This document shows, in pieces, positions 15,714 through 21,148 of a stretch of 64,000 bases of DNA; positions within the stretch are counted from its first letter, which is position 1, and every line of letters starts with the position of its first letter. The notes under the pieces are model-generated. The model did not search any database and was not told the origin of the DNA. It was given only the letters and a program-made list of their open reading frames with translations. The position numbers and the translations under genes were made by a program. The stretch covers positions 992,001-1,056,000 of the forward strand of contig NZ_JAJCVJ010000001.1 in assembly GCF_020567425.1 (NCBI RefSeq). The letters run 5' to 3'. This DNA comes from Salinirubrum litoreum. GTDB taxonomy: Archaea > Halobacteriota > Halobacteria > Halobacteriales > Haloferacaceae.

Positions 15714-16493
15714 CTACACCTCGGGCGACTCCATCACCTGCGGGACGCCCTGTGCCGTGATCGTCTCGCCGACGACGTAGGAGGCGGCGGGGCTGGCGAG
15801 GAACTGCGCGATGTCGGCGATCTCCTCGCTCAGGCCGATCCGGCGCTCGACGTCTTCGCGGTCGACGTTGTCGGCGGAGACGCCCATCTGCGTCTCGACG
15901 CCCGGCGTGGCGACGAAGCCGGGTGCGATGCAGTTGACGCGCACGTCGTCGCTGGCCCACTCGTAGGCGAGCGTGGTCGTGAGGTTGACGACGCCCGCTT
16001 TCGCTGCGCCGTAGTGGGACATGAACGGCGACCCCTGCTGGCCCGCGACCGACGAGAGGTTGATGACGCTCCCGCCGCCGTCCTCCTTCATGACGCGGCC
16101 GGCGGCCTGCGTGCAGTGGAAGGTGCCGGTGAGGTTGATGTCGAGGATGGTCTTCCAGCCGTTCTCCGAGATGTCGTCGAAGGAGGCCATGAACGACGCG
16201 CCGGCGTTGTTGATCAGACAGTCGACGGTGCCGAACTCCTCGACGGTGGCGTCGACGAGGGCGTCGACCGCGTCCCGGTCCCGCACGTCACACTCGACCG
16301 CGAGGGCACGACCGGCGGACTCCTCCTCGTTGATGTCCTCGGCGACCGGATCGACGTTCTCCTGTTCACGCGAACAGACGACGACGTTCGCGCCGTCTGC
16401 GGCGAATCGTTCGGCGATGGACCTGCCGATTCCGCTGGAGGAACCGGTGACGATGACGGTGCTGCCCGCGACGCTGAACTGGTCGGTCGGCAT
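15714..16493 (-). CDS. short-chain dehydrogenase/reductase (SDR)
   Basis: A 259-residue classical SDR. The cofactor loop TGSSSGIG is at residues 16-23, NNAG is near 95-98, and the catalytic Ser148, Tyr161 and Lys165 (YGAAK) are in place. An Arg in the VVCSREQ stretch after beta-2 hints at NADP(H), which is inference. The alcohol/ketone substrate cannot be read from the sequence. It lies between the DoxX gene (59 bases upstream) and the LOG-like gene (6 bases downstream), all on the minus strand. Confidence 0.92.
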   Translation of the reverse strand: MPTDQFSVAGSTVIVTGSSSGIGRSIAERFAADGANVVVCSREQENVDPVAEDINEEESAGRALAVECDVRDRDAVDALVDATVEEFGTVDCLINNAGASFMASFDDISENGWKTILDINLTGTFHCTQAAGRVMKEDGGGSVINLSSVAGQQGSPFMSHYGAAKAGVVNLTTTLAYEWASDDVRVNCIAPGFVATPGVETQMGVSADNVDREDVERRIGLSEEIADIAQFLASPAASYVVGETITAQGVPQVMESPEV

Positions 16494-16552: not shown

Positions 16553-17125
16553 TCAGCCGAGGAACAGTCTGACCCAGCGGTTGTTCTTCACGAAGTCCAA
16601 CTGTTCGAGGTAGGAGTCGACTCCGAAGATGCGGCCGGCACCGAAGGCCCCGAGGCCGAACAGCAGTGCGGCGTACACCAGGTGGTCGTCGACGACCCAG
16701 CCGTGTGCCAGCGGGAGGCCCGCGAGGAGGCCGCCTTCGAGTGCCGCCGCCCAGTAGAACAGCATCATCACCGCACCCCAGAACGCGTTCCAGCGGACGA
16801 GCGCGCCGAGGAGGAGACCGAGGCCGGTCAACGTCAGCCCCCACATGTTCAGCATGTCGACGAGCGGCATCCCCGCCATCGCCGCGAACGCCCCCGCGAA
16901 CGGGTTCCCCGCCGGAATCGCGTTGGCGAGGTAACCCGCCGCCGTCCAGTTGTTGGACGGGTCCGCGTCGAGGTAGGTGATGAGCTTCGTCACGCCGCCC
17001 TGGAACAGGACCCAGCCCATCACGATGCGCATCCCGAGGAGCGCGTAGCCGATCCACGTCTCCGAGTACTCGAAGTTGGTCTCTCTCCCGAACAGTTCGG
17101 TGCTCATCCGGTTTTTCGTTGACAT
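16553..17125 (-). CDS. DoxX family membrane protein
   Basis: The start at 17125 gives 190 residues. There are four hydrophobic segments, with the family-typical MRIVMGWVLFQGGVTKL near the first span, a WNAFWGAVMMLFY segment and the HLVYAALLFGLGAFGAGR end. DoxX/DoxD-type proteins include the small subunit of thiosulfate:quinone oxidoreductase; in haloarchaea most are unassigned. A TGTATAG box at 17153-17159 on the minus strand is about 28 bases upstream, supporting this start. Confidence 0.85.
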   Translation of the reverse strand: MSTKNRMSTELFGRETNFEYSETWIGYALLGMRIVMGWVLFQGGVTKLITYLDADPSNNWTAAGYLANAIPAGNPFAGAFAAMAGMPLVDMLNMWGLTLTGLGLLLGALVRWNAFWGAVMMLFYWAAALEGGLLAGLPLAHGWVVDDHLVYAALLFGLGAFGAGRIFGVDSYLEQLDFVKNNRWVRLFLG

Positions 17126-17202
17126 CGCACCGGTCTGTTTCGTCAACATCTACCTATACAGAGTCCCTGAGAACTCAAGGCCCAGAGGGGGTCGGGTCGT
17201 GA

Positions 17203-17982
17203 TCACCCGGCGAGACGTCGGGCGAGTGCCGGGAGGAGGTCGGTCACGTCGGCGCGGAAGACGTAGTCTGCTCGGTCGTCGAGCGGTGTCGGGTCGAAGT
17301 TCACGACCGCGAGCGTGCCGCCACGGGCCGCGTCGCGGGGGATCGAGGCGGCCGGTTCCACCTGCAAGGAGGACCCGACCGCCAGCACCACGTCGGCCGA
17401 CCCCGCCAGGTCGCGGGCCTCGGCATAGGTCTCGCGGGGCAACTGTTCGCCGAACAGCACCACGTCCGGTTTCAACAGACCGCCACAGTCGCAGGTCGGC
17501 GGCACTTCGCCGTCCCGCACCCTGTCGTGCACCGGGTCGGCCCGCTGGCGGTCGCCACACCGCCGGCAGACGACCCTGCTGGTCGTGCCGTGGAGTTCCA
17601 GCACCCGCCGGCTTCCCGCCTCTGCGTGGAGGCCGTCGGTGTTCTGCGTCACCACCGCGTCGAGGACGCCGGCCGACTCCAACTCGACGAGCGCCGCGTG
17701 GGCCGGGTTCGGCCCGACCGACTCGGGGAACATCGCCTCGTGGAGAGCGAGGCGGTCCCGCCAGAAGCCGGCCGGATCGGCCTCGAACCGCCCGATCCGG
17801 AAGTCACGGGGGTCGAACTCGGTCTCCCAGATGCCGCCCTCGCCACGGAACGGCGGGATACCGGAGGCCGTCGAGACGCCCGCACCGGTGAACGCGAACG
17901 CGGTGTCGGCGGTTCGGAGGTCGGCGGCGAGGCTGTCGAGGTCGGCGGCGAAGCGGTCGATCTCACTCGACTCGTCGGCCAC
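17203..17982 (-). CDS. sirtuin, NAD-dependent protein deacylase
   Basis: The GTG at 17982 gives 259 residues. Diagnostic motifs are GAGVSTASGIPPFRG (residues 33-47), TQNTDGLH (112-119), the catalytic His131 in ELHG, a zinc site with Cys139/Cys142 and Cys164/Cys166, GSSL, and VNFD near the C-terminus. Sirtuins remove acetyl or longer acyl groups from lysine using NAD+. The gene begins 2 bases after the acyl-CoA dehydrogenase stop, so the two are co-transcribed. This makes acyl-lysine turnover linked to acyl-CoA metabolism a reasonable inference. No other start fits as well. Confidence 0.93.
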   Translation of the reverse strand: MADESSEIDRFAADLDSLAADLRTADTAFAFTGAGVSTASGIPPFRGEGGIWETEFDPRDFRIGRFEADPAGFWRDRLALHEAMFPESVGPNPAHAALVELESAGVLDAVVTQNTDGLHAEAGSRRVLELHGTTSRVVCRRCGDRQRADPVHDRVRDGEVPPTCDCGGLLKPDVVLFGEQLPRETYAEARDLAGSADVVLAVGSSLQVEPAASIPRDAARGGTLAVVNFDPTPLDDRADYVFRADVTDLLPALARRLAG

Positions 17983-17984
17983 CG

Positions 17985-19199
17985 TCAGCCTCGGTAGCGC
18001 GTCACGCCCTCGATGGCCGACTCGTCGACGTCTTCGAAGGCGTCCCGCGCGATGGTGCGCTTGTGGACCTCGTCGGCCCCGTCGACGATGCGGAACTGCC
18101 GGACGTTCTCGTAGAAGTCCGCGAGGGGCAGGTCCTTCCCGATGCCGTTGCCGCCGCAGTGCTGGACCGCCGTGTCGATCACGTCCTGCACGACGTTCGC
18201 CGAGAACACCTTCGACATCGCCACCGGGACGCGGGCCTCCTCGCCCGCCGCGATCTCGCTGGCGGCGTGGCGAACCATCGTCCGGGCGGCGTGCAGGCGC
18301 GTCTCGCACTCTGCGACCTCGAACCGGAGCCCCTGCTTGTCCGCGAGCGACCCGCCGAACGCCTCCCGCTCCGAGACGTACGCCTTCGAGACCGCCAGTG
18401 CGCGCTCCGCCATCCCGCAGAAGCGCATGCAGTGCGTCAGTCGTGCCGGGCCGAGTCGCTGCTGGGCGTGTGCGAAGCCGGCGTTCTCGACGCCGAGCAG
18501 GTTCGACTCGGGGACACGGGCGTCGTGGAACTCGATTTCCGCGTGTCCGAGGCCGGTGACGCCGCCGCCGACGTGCGGGATGTCGCGGACGATGTCTACT
18601 CCTTCGGTGTCGGTCGGCACGAGGATCAGCGAGGTGCCCTCGTAGGGGTGTGCGTCCGGGTCGGTCCGGGCCATGACGATGAGCACGTCCGCCTCGGTGC
18701 CGCCGGTCGTCCACCACTTGTGGCCGTTTATCACCCAGTCGCCGTCGTCTCGCTCGGCGGTCGTCCGGAGCATCTTCGGGTCCGACCCGCCGCCCTGCAT
18801 CGGTTCGGTCATCGAGAAGCCGGAACTGATCTCCCCGCTCACGAGTGGTTCGAGCCAGCGGTCCTGCTGGTCGGGTGTGCCGAACAGCTCCAGCGTGTGC
18901 ATGTTCCCCTCGTCGGGGGCATCGACCCGGAGCGCGGCCGGCGCGAGTAGACTCCGCCCTGCTTCCTCGAAGGCAGGGAGCACGTCGGCGAAGTCCATCC
19001 CGAGACCGCCGAACTCCTCGCCGATCTGCGGGGCGTAGAGACCGCGTTCTCTCGCCTCGCTCCGCAGGTCGGCGAGATCCGACTTCGAAATCGTCCCTTC
19101 GCCGAGATACTCGCGCTCGACGGGGATGACCGACTCGTCGACGAACGACCTGACCTCGTCGGCGAACGCCTCGGCGGCGGCAGAATCGTGATAGTCCAT
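17985..19199 (-). CDS. acyl-CoA dehydrogenase, ACAD10/11-like
   Basis: This 404-residue FAD enzyme has the normal three-domain layout: an N-terminal helical domain with GEEFGGLGMDF, a central beta domain with GFSMTEP and NGHKWWTTGG, and a C-terminal helical domain with AVQHCGGNGIGKD and RIVDGADEVHKRTIAR. The DG-DEVH ending and the long middle region resemble the ACAD10/11 and LvaC branch more than medium-chain enzymes. An APH-fold kinase, the partner domain in ACAD10/11, is encoded 885 bases away on the opposite strand. A CGTTTAGG box (19223-19230) is about 27 bases upstream. Confidence 0.93.
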   Translation of the reverse strand: MDYHDSAAAEAFADEVRSFVDESVIPVEREYLGEGTISKSDLADLRSEARERGLYAPQIGEEFGGLGMDFADVLPAFEEAGRSLLAPAALRVDAPDEGNMHTLELFGTPDQQDRWLEPLVSGEISSGFSMTEPMQGGGSDPKMLRTTAERDDGDWVINGHKWWTTGGTEADVLIVMARTDPDAHPYEGTSLILVPTDTEGVDIVRDIPHVGGGVTGLGHAEIEFHDARVPESNLLGVENAGFAHAQQRLGPARLTHCMRFCGMAERALAVSKAYVSEREAFGGSLADKQGLRFEVAECETRLHAARTMVRHAASEIAAGEEARVPVAMSKVFSANVVQDVIDTAVQHCGGNGIGKDLPLADFYENVRQFRIVDGADEVHKRTIARDAFEDVDESAIEGVTRYRG

Positions 19200-19367
19200 A
19201 CCCGAGTCTGCGACGGCACCGACCTAAACGTTGGGTCGGCGGCATCGCCACCCTCGTCACCGGAGCCTGCCTCGGTGACGCGTCCCACCGGTCTGCGCCA
19301 GTGACGCGTCGTCAGTGACTGGGAACGGGACGTGCTTTGATACCACACCAGTACGTCACGATTAATC

Positions 19368-19847
19368 ATGTCGGGTGAGGAGCTCACCGATCTCGACGGG
19401 TATCACATGGACAGGGAGTCGGCGGCGGAGCTACTGGCGTCGACCGGTGTCGGCGTCCTCTCGCTGTCGGCCGAGGGGGAGTCGTACGCGCTCCCGATGT
19501 CGTTCGGCTACGACGGCGGCGAGCGACTGTACTTCGTCTTCCTCGAAGCCGGCGACGAGAGCCTGAAAGCTCGCTTCGCCGACGAGACGACCCGCGCCTG
19601 CGTGACGGTGTTCGAGGCGGACGACGACGCGGAGCGAGGAGGCGACGACTGGGCGAGCGTCGTGGCGAAGGGCCCCGTCCGCCGTGTCGAGACCGACGAG
19701 TGGGACGAACTGCGGGAGGCGCTGGCCGACAACGCGTGGCACCCATCGCTGTTCACCGCCGCGTCGCCGACCGGCGGCGTGACGGGCTACGCCCTCCGGA
19801 TCGACGAACTGACCGGGCGACACGGTGGCGGGTACGAGTTCGAGTGA
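19368..19847 (+). CDS. pyridoxamine 5'-phosphate oxidase-like flavin split-barrel protein
   Basis: The 159-residue protein fits the small haloarchaeal PNPOx-like family: an N-terminal helix with HMDRESAAELLAS, then strands GVGVLSLSAEGESYALPMSFGYDGG and YFVFLEAGDE forming the split barrel. Members bind FMN, F420 or heme; the substrate is unknown here. It lies between the divergent acyl-CoA dehydrogenase and kinase genes. The ATG at 19368 has only weak promoter sequence upstream (TTGATACC near 19337). Confidence 0.85.
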   Translation: MSGEELTDLDGYHMDRESAAELLASTGVGVLSLSAEGESYALPMSFGYDGGERLYFVFLEAGDESLKARFADETTRACVTVFEADDDAERGGDDWASVVAKGPVRRVETDEWDELREALADNAWHPSLFTAASPTGGVTGYALRIDELTGRHGGGYEFE

Positions 19848-20005
19848 TGCTCGGCCGCGTCGGTCTCGTCCGAGTCCACCGGCGTCGAACCGTCGCCGGC
19901 ACGGCCGACCGCGAACCGCAGGAGACGGACGACCGCGGTGACGAGGAGCCAGTACAGCAGTGAGGACGCGAATCCGAGGTCGCTGACTTCGGAGAGAGCG
20001 GACAC
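19787..20005 (-). CDS. possible small one-span membrane protein
   Basis: A GTG at 20005 opens a 72-residue frame beginning (M)SALSEVSDLGFASSLLYW. It has one clear hydrophobic helix (about residues 10-32), an Arg pair and an Asp/Glu-rich tail, with strongly GC-ending codons in the first 50 codons. Its last 20 codons overlap the 3' end of the split-barrel gene on the other strand, which counts against it. No family is recognised. Confidence 0.35.
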   Translation of the reverse strand: MSALSEVSDLGFASSLLYWLLVTAVVRLLRFAVGRAGDGSTPVDSDETDAAEHHSNSYPPPCRPVSSSIRRA

Positions 20006-20083
20006 GGAATCGACGACATGGTCGTCGGTGATGAAGCTTCGCCCACCCACAGCTATTCGGCACCGGCGCGTCTCCCTCCGGCC

Positions 20084-21148
20084 ATGTCGGACGAGGACTA
20101 CTTCGCGCGACTCGTCGACCCCGACCGGCTTCGCTCGTATCTCGAAGCCGAACTCGGACCGGTCGAGTCGTTCGACGTGGCACACCACCGGGAGGGCCAC
20201 TCGAACGAGACGCTGTTCGTCACCTTCGGCGACCGGGAGTTGGTCGTGCGTCGACCACCGCCGGGCGAGACGGCCGACCGGGCCCACGACGTGCTCCGGG
20301 AGTACCGCGTGATGGACGCGCTACAGGAGACACCGGTCCCGCTGGCCCAGACTGTACTCGGCTGTGACGACGAGTCGGTGCTCGGCTCGGACTTCTACGT
20401 CATGGAGCGCGTTCGCGGCGACGTGTTGCGGGACGCGGAACCTGACCGCTTCGCGGCCCCGGCGCACCGCGAGCGCGTCGGCACGGAACTCGTGGACACC
20501 CTGTCGGCGATACACGCGGTGGACCCCGAGGCGGTCGGACTCGGCGACTTCGGCTACCCGGAGGGGTTCACCGAGCGACAGGTGAAACGCTGGTCGGAGC
20601 AGTTGACGTGGGCGTTCTCGCGGACCATCGAGGAGCGCGAGGTGCCGGCGCTGTACGACGTGATGGACTGGCTCCAGTCGAACGTCCCCGAGGACCCGCC
20701 GGCGACGCTGGTCCACGGCGACTTCAAACTGGACAACGTGATGTACGGGCCGGGAACGCCCCCCGAAATCGTCGCCGTCTTCGACTGGGAACTCTCGACG
20801 CTGGGCGACCCCCGGACCGACCTCGGCTGGTTGCTCTCCTACTGGCGCGACCCGAAGGATCCGGAGCCGGCGGTGCCGGAACTGACGGCCGACTTCATGA
20901 CCGGCGAGGGCTATCCGACCCGGCAGGAACTGGTCGCGCGGTGGGAGGAGGCTACCGGCATCACGTACGAACACGACCGGTTCTACCGGACGCTGGCGGT
21001 CTACAAGCTCTGTGCGCTCGGCGAGATGTTCTACCGGCGGTATCTGGAGGGCAACTCGGACGACGACCTCTACCCGCTGATGGAGTCGCGGGTGCCCGCG
21101 CTGGCCGACCGGGCGGTCCGGATCGTGGAAGGCGAGGAGCCGTTGTGA
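20084..21148 (+). CDS. APH-fold kinase, ACAD10/11 N-domain-like
   Basis: The 354-residue protein is an aminoglycoside-phosphotransferase/choline-kinase-fold enzyme. The Brenner motif HGDFKLDN holds His211, Asp213 and Asn218, the metal-binding Asp is Asp234 in FDWE, and the N-lobe has a G-H-S-N-E-T loop. Archaeal and bacterial relatives pair with acyl-CoA dehydrogenases. In ACAD10/11 and the Pseudomonas Lva pathway such a kinase phosphorylates 4-hydroxyacyl-CoA. The ATG at 20084 fits the family; an upstream GTG at 20018 would add an unlikely leader. Drug resistance is an unlikely role. Confidence 0.85.
   Translation: MSDEDYFARLVDPDRLRSYLEAELGPVESFDVAHHREGHSNETLFVTFGDRELVVRRPPPGETADRAHDVLREYRVMDALQETPVPLAQTVLGCDDESVLGSDFYVMERVRGDVLRDAEPDRFAAPAHRERVGTELVDTLSAIHAVDPEAVGLGDFGYPEGFTERQVKRWSEQLTWAFSRTIEEREVPALYDVMDWLQSNVPEDPPATLVHGDFKLDNVMYGPGTPPEIVAVFDWELSTLGDPRTDLGWLLSYWRDPKDPEPAVPELTADFMTGEGYPTRQELVARWEEATGITYEHDRFYRTLAVYKLCALGEMFYRRYLEGNSDDDLYPLMESRVPALADRAVRIVEGEEPL

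Follow-up and report, generated by a model that had tools for sequence, protein, structure and literature searches.

The subject of this report is a pair of genes in the archaeon Salinirubrum litoreum, one encoding an acyl-coenzyme A (CoA) dehydrogenase (ACAD) and the other a kinase with the aminoglycoside phosphotransferase (APH) fold. They lie in a stretch of 64,000 nucleotides from a genome of 4.06 Mb (contig NZ_JAJCVJ010000001.1, positions 992,001 to 1,056,000), called the window below. The minus strand carries the ACAD gene and the plus strand the kinase gene; the two are divergently transcribed, and a single gene separates them. A gene for a short-chain dehydrogenase/reductase (SDR) stands further downstream of the ACAD. 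The kinase, ACAD and SDR genes span 5.5 kb of the window, without being one operon.

17985-19199, minus strand: ACAD10/11-like acyl-CoA dehydrogenase, 404 amino acids (Pfam PF02771, PF02770 and PF00441; PDB relatives, motif and tree).
18423-18458, minus strand: codons of R248-LGPA-R253-LT-H256-C-M-R259, matching R626, R631, H634 and R637 of the phosphate-binding helix in an alignment to mouse ACAD11.
18081-18083, minus strand: codon of the catalytic Asp373, in IVDGADEVH, matching D753 of ACAD11 (Glu in ordinary ACADs).
20084-21148, plus strand: APH-fold kinase, 354 amino acids (PF01636, E 4e-50; PDB relatives 9o56, ACAD11 and 3dxp; motifs and tree).
15714-16493, minus strand: SDR dehydrogenase, 259 amino acids, predicted to be an LvaD-like 4-oxoacyl/4-hydroxyacyl-CoA oxidoreductase (orthologue counts and proximity).

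An original prediction, made from the letters of the window, had placed the dehydrogenase and the kinase at these coordinates with one flavin split-barrel gene between them, and the coordinates were confirmed; the prediction made no mention of their divergent orientation. A start of the kinase at 20084 is consistent with its orthologues, whose alignments begin in most cases at residues 1-5.

The closest relative of the window ACAD among all PDB sequences is 4hr3, a putative ACAD (5e-71). Next come mouse ACAD11 (2e-65) and human ACAD11 (4e-64), and ordinary ACADs match at 1e-50 or weaker. The window ACAD is approximately 35-38% identical to ACAD11, and no other ACAD of its own genome exceeds 34% identity to it.

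In ACAD11, the 4-phosphate of the substrate is held by R626, H634 and R637, and D753 acts as the base. ACAD activity suffers most, and is destroyed, when R626, H634 or R637 is replaced (PMC12440821). The corresponding signature is complete in the window ACAD (R248, R253, H256-CMR259 and Asp373), and its residues are retained in every haloarchaeal ACAD orthologue sampled. By contrast, all six full-length ACAD paralogues that the genome also encodes carry the usual catalytic Glu and have no HCMR. In other ordinary ACADs the catalytic position holds Glu or a different residue, and HCMR is missing too. The window enzyme thus lacks the catalytic Glu of the ordinary medium- and short-chain class, and it does not cluster with that class. 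It is predicted to convert a 4-phosphoacyl-CoA by elimination of the phosphate.

The kinase has a similar set of relatives. Its best PDB matches are 9o56 (1e-62), ACAD11 (1e-51) and 3dxp (2e-51), and both Asp213 of its HGD motif and Asp234 of its DWE motif are intact. Relatives with solved structures place every catalytic residue of the pair. The split ACAD10/ACAD11 reading of the original prediction is supported: ACAD11 is among the PDB relatives of each protein, and the ACAD has the full catalytic signature. The S. litoreum genome contains only one kinase of this type, and it may be described as a predicted 4-hydroxyacyl-CoA kinase. A sample of 247 genomes from the phylum yielded the kinase in the haloarchaeal order only. 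In a quick tree, the ACAD-associated kinases of haloarchaea make up one clade (support 95), related to bacterial kinases and to that of ACAD11.

Some haloarchaeal genomes carry more than one such kinase. Three to five matches, 30-70% identical and in differing gene contexts, are found in G143, G120, G167 and G110, which suggests substrate diversification within the family. In another genome the kinase match is in two pieces on adjacent stretches (G132:C1:2645505-2646608), suggesting a frameshift, an insertion or a sequencing error; the ACAD is still present.

Evidence that the two proteins work together is provided by their distribution in 194 haloarchaeal genomes. Kinase orthologues were accepted at E 1e-80 or better, below which there is a gap down to 1e-52, and ACAD orthologues at 1e-120 or better in a search with a cut-off of 1e-80. 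Both genes are present in 95 genomes and neither in the other 99, and not a single genome holds one alone (Fisher p 7e-58, phylogeny ignored). In 12 genera that hold positive as well as negative species, the presence of kinase and ACAD agrees in every species. An ordinary ACAD of the same genome, taken as a control, is found in 172/194 genomes and does not separate the positive from the negative set.

Linkage alone does not explain this pattern, because 41 genomes hold both genes with no pair within 8 kb. Close pairs are divergent in 45 cases, convergent in 11 and in the same direction in 4. In a species of genus g10 the ACAD is gone and the kinase is reduced to a remnant of 71 residues, interrupted by two in-frame stops (G183:C22:97849-98061), as expected if the two genes are lost together.

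Two further proteins are inherited with the pair. Orthologues of the SDR are found in 81/95 pair-positive genomes versus 10/99 pair-negative ones (p 5e-28), and in 66 of those 81 the gene is at most 3 kb from the kinase, the ACAD or the second partner. This partner is a hydrolase of the haloacid dehalogenase (HAD) family that recurs beside the kinase. Orthologues of it are found in 69 genomes, every one of which has the pair (p 4e-31), and in 38 genomes it lies within 3 kb of the kinase, on the same strand every time. The S. litoreum genome has no orthologue of it.

The second Asp of the HAD DxD motif is Gly in all 46 of the 46 copies sampled. The HAD domain of ACAD10 is similarly degenerate and restrains the kinase (PMC11342911), which would make the haloarchaeal set look like a split ACAD10 with its HAD included. 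That idea is weakened by the nearest families of the haloarchaeal protein, which are the archaeal TIGR02253 and Pyrococcus PH0459-type hydrolases, and by an aligned relative of solved structure that also lacks the second Asp. For these two reasons the haloarchaeal HAD was probably recruited independently, rather than sharing descent with the ACAD10 HAD. Other phosphatase-like proteins also stand beside the kinase. In Halocatena salina, the kinase gene shares a few bases with an overlapping 2-phosphosulfolactate phosphatase-like gene (L239:3688-5444), and unrelated phosphatase-like proteins (HAD, histidine phosphatase and 2-phosphosulfolactate phosphatase-like) repeatedly accompany the kinase.

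The relationship of the dehydrogenase to known enzymes can be seen in a maximum-likelihood tree of 80 ACADs, in which neither human ACAD10 nor the named LvaC of P. putida is included. All motif-bearing ACADs fall on one side of a branch with support 100/100. On that side, one clade (100/100) is made up of 30 LvaC-like and ACAD11 rows and another (100/100) of 24 haloarchaeal rows; the latter is joined by three ACADs from Pseudomonas operons that encode a kinase and a DUF6285 protein (98/88). The nearest bacterial ACADs found are those of Thermus (43% identical) and of these DUF6285-type Pseudomonas operons.

Among the nearest known systems are mammalian ACAD11 and ACAD10 (PMC12440821, PMC11342911). 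They too combine an APH-fold kinase with an ACAD and have the equivalent residues R626, R631, H634-C-M-R637 and Asp753, and in ACAD10 a HAD module accompanies the kinase, as in most pair-bearing haloarchaea. Unlike the mammalian fusions, the haloarchaeal kinase and ACAD are separate, divergent open reading frames. The window ACAD is only about 38% identical to ACAD11 and belongs to another clade, and the haloarchaeal HAD, unlike that of ACAD10, is closest to archaeal TIGR02253-type hydrolases.

In the Pseudomonas Lva pathway, the kinase LvaA, the ACAD LvaC and the SDR LvaD are encoded by separate genes (PMC6692424, PMC11342911). LvaD reduces levulinyl-CoA to 4-hydroxyvaleryl-CoA, and the levulinate cluster of P. 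citronellolis includes a kinase, a phosphatase beside it, an ACAD and an SDR, with no lvaB (PMC6692424). Haloarchaea have a kinase, an ACAD, an SDR and a phosphatase-like protein, and so would match the P. citronellolis cluster by role, given the predicted roles of SDR and HAD. There are also differences. In haloarchaea the genes do not form one operon but are divergent or dispersed; the phosphatase slot is taken by a HAD, not by a histidine phosphatase; and the tree, which does not include the named LvaC of P. putida, separates the haloarchaeal ACAD clade from that of LvaC-like enzymes.

A bacterial counterpart can be found on plasmid pTT27 of Thermus thermophilus HB8, where TTH_RS10075-RS10060 encode an ACAD, an APH kinase, a DUF6285 protein and a histidine phosphatase. 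Within the plasmid collection this ACAD is the nearest bacterial type. It is 43% identical to the window ACAD and has RLTHCMR and YDGPSEVH, and an SDR, an AMP-binding enzyme and a MaoC protein adjoin the cluster. The Thermus genes differ in forming an operon with DUF6285 and a histidine phosphatase, and the kinase is only 28% identical; no assay of the Thermus proteins was found. The DUF6285 protein of related operons is small and is encoded next to the kinase. Kinase-DUF6285-ACAD operons were seen at three Pseudomonas loci (L234, L235 and L236) and at the pTT27 locus (L238); their ACADs have RLTHCMR and YDGP(S/N)EVH and are approximately 35% identical to ACAD11. The Pseudomonas operons were considered as the lva operon and rejected, since about 35% compares with 56-62% reported for LvaC. 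From their motifs, the Pseudomonas and Thermus operons are apparently a further branch of the same chemistry.

Recurrent neighbours of the pair are genes for acyl-CoA ligases, hydratases of the MaoC and enoyl-CoA types, 3-hydroxyacyl-CoA dehydrogenases, thiolases and ordinary ACADs. Such beta-oxidation neighbours are expected if the product of the pair is an enoyl-CoA. An example is plasmid pHME132 of Haloferax mediterranei, where kinase (E6P09_RS18925), ACAD (RS18920), HAD (RS18915) and SDR (RS18905) lie together, accompanied by an ordinary ACAD, a CoA ligase and a dehydrogenase fused to a hydratase. The H. mediterranei proteins are orthologous to those of the window (kinase 70%, ACAD 70% and SDR 77% identical), but the plasmid has a HAD and the set is placed within a wider island of lipid and alcohol catabolism. 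H. mediterranei grows on levulinic acid (PMC12455835).

Taken together, the pair is quite likely an archaeal form of the ACAD10/11 (LvaA plus LvaC) system, split into two genes, that acts on 4-hydroxyacyl-CoA with SDR and HAD partners. In the proposed mechanism, the APH-fold kinase would phosphorylate the hydroxyl group on carbon 4 of the acyl-CoA, and the ACAD would hold the resulting 4-phosphoacyl-CoA through the R248/H256/R259 cluster. Asp373 would then take the proton from carbon 2 while FAD passes through a closed redox cycle and phosphate is eliminated. The product would be a trans-2-enoyl-CoA, which could enter ordinary beta-oxidation. The SDR would probably link 4-oxo acids (for instance levulinyl-CoA) to 4-hydroxyacyl-CoA, like LvaD, and the HAD of most other pair-bearing haloarchaea probably restrains the kinase or clears stranded phospho-intermediates. 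The data show what the genes are, that their catalytic residues are conserved, to which clade they belong and that kinase, ACAD, SDR and HAD are inherited together. The reactions, the hydroxyl position, the length of the acyl chain, the functions of SDR and HAD and a natural substrate that would be levulinate or another 4-hydroxy or 4-oxo acid are inferred. The haloarchaeal 4-hydroxy-acid route of the original prediction is in this sense well supported by gene anatomy, as a predicted route.

Several observations weigh against this interpretation. The window ACAD lies outside the LvaC/ACAD11 clade, on a separate deep branch, so that substrate and regiochemistry could differ. The expectation that the haloarchaeal ACAD would be found inside that clade is rejected by the tree. 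The original prediction tied the enzyme to ACAD10/11 and LvaC and named clustering with medium- or short-chain ACADs as evidence to the contrary. That check came out in its favour, with one correction: the haloarchaeal enzymes group with the ACAD11/LvaC type and not with ordinary ACADs, and are ACAD10/11-like at all catalytic residues tested, yet they stand outside the ACAD10/11/LvaC sequence clade. When the motif columns are removed, the arrangement stays, but the join of all motif-bearing ACADs has support of only 66/3. A search for an LvaB-like partner by way of DUF6285 found no such gene in the genome, LvaB being only a possible member of DUF6285. No CoA ligase adjoins the ACAD/kinase pair in the window. 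The growth of H. mediterranei on levulinate would fit the pathway, though its link to these genes is a supposed one. Finally, no assay was found for any member of the haloarchaeal ACAD branch.

The deep branching can also be read differently. The pair may perform the same chemistry on another class of hydroxyacyl-CoA, with the hydroxyl group at another position or on a branched, isoprenoid or cyclic chain. Haloarchaeal membrane chains are isoprenoid, the haloarchaeal ACADs branch deeply with the enzymes of DUF6285 operons and away from the assayed LvaC/ACAD11 clade, and the two to five kinase-like matches of some genomes, in varied contexts, suggest several substrates. This alternative is nevertheless unlikely, given that every residue by which ACAD11 binds the 4-phosphate is conserved here and that the SDR partner and the levulinate growth of H. 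mediterranei fit a 4-oxo/4-hydroxy route. A broader proposal, rather improbable as a whole, is that phosphate-activated dehydroxylation has a third branch in haloarchaea and some bacteria, one that was assembled separately, has a HAD of its own as a checkpoint on the kinase and acts on substrates unlike those of ACAD10/11, possibly hydroxylated branched or isoprenoid acyl chains. Phosphorylation would then be a general prokaryotic means of removing hydroxyl groups from acyl-CoA.

It is far less probable that an ordinary ACAD and an unrelated APH-type kinase are joined only by co-moving catabolic islands. Some pairs are plasmid-borne, the transfer of islands is able to generate co-occurrence, and neither protein matches an NCBIfam equivalog above the cut-off. 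However, 41 genomes keep the two genes apart and none has one alone, a perfect co-occurrence in place of the lack of it that the original prediction had held out as a refutation. In addition, the ACAD carries the phosphate-site residues and is without the catalytic Glu of ordinary ACADs, and the ACAD and the kinase each match ACAD11 independently. A role in the mobilisation of polyhydroxyalkanoate (PHA), which the original prediction had offered as a possibility, is hardly credible and was set aside. PHA is stored in many haloarchaea and MaoC-type hydratases are near some pairs, but haloarchaeal poly(3-hydroxybutyrate-co-3-hydroxyvalerate) yields 3-hydroxyacyl-CoA, which PhaJ dehydrates directly to the enoyl-CoA for beta-oxidation (PMC4823750), so that phosphorylation, and with it a kinase, is not needed. 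Nor is a PHA synthase or phasin among the identified recurrent neighbour families.

If the pair does act on 4-hydroxyacyl-CoA, the recently discovered ACAD10/11 route extends to archaea, which are not mentioned in the ACAD10/11 work of PMC12440821 and PMC11342911. A limited literature search found no description of the haloarchaeal pair, and current annotation reads only 'phosphotransferase family protein' and 'acyl-CoA dehydrogenase family protein'. Roughly half of the haloarchaea in the sample would gain a predicted use of 4-hydroxy and 4-oxo acids, for instance levulinate. Two questions could be addressed in the cultivated H. mediterranei. One is the reason for the repeated presence of a phosphatase-like protein with the kinase (a HAD in ACAD10 and haloarchaea, a histidine phosphatase in Thermus and P. 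citronellolis); the other is the part of the ACAD that determines whether the substrate is oxidised or loses its phosphate.

Three other genes of the window lie among those described above. On the minus strand, the order downstream of the ACAD is Sir2-family, DoxX-like and SDR.

19368-19847, plus strand: flavin split-barrel protein, between the kinase and ACAD genes (PF12900).
17203-17982, minus strand: Sir2-family protein, immediately downstream of the ACAD (PF02146).
16553-17149, minus strand: DoxX-like membrane protein (weak PF07681 match, slightly under the cut-off).

The split-barrel gene was considered as a pathway member and rejected, as it does not recur beside other pairs: no conserved cluster of the PF12900 protein was found in 40 other pair neighbourhoods. 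It is probably a local insertion between the two genes. The DoxX-like gene likewise shows no recurrence with the pair in the neighbourhoods compared.

Orthologues of the Sir2-family protein are same-strand neighbours of the ACAD in 7 genomes of several families and neighbours of the kinase in 2. They are at most 26 kb from the kinase or the ACAD in 33/74 cases, and they are present too in 33 pair-negative genomes. A possible role is that of a deacylase for acylated enzymes, or in acyl-lysine control. On a Deinococcus plasmid, a macrodomain (Appr-1-p) gene stands between the MaoC and ACAD genes of a kinase-containing cluster (L110:2620-4391), which recalls the Sir2 neighbour of haloarchaea.

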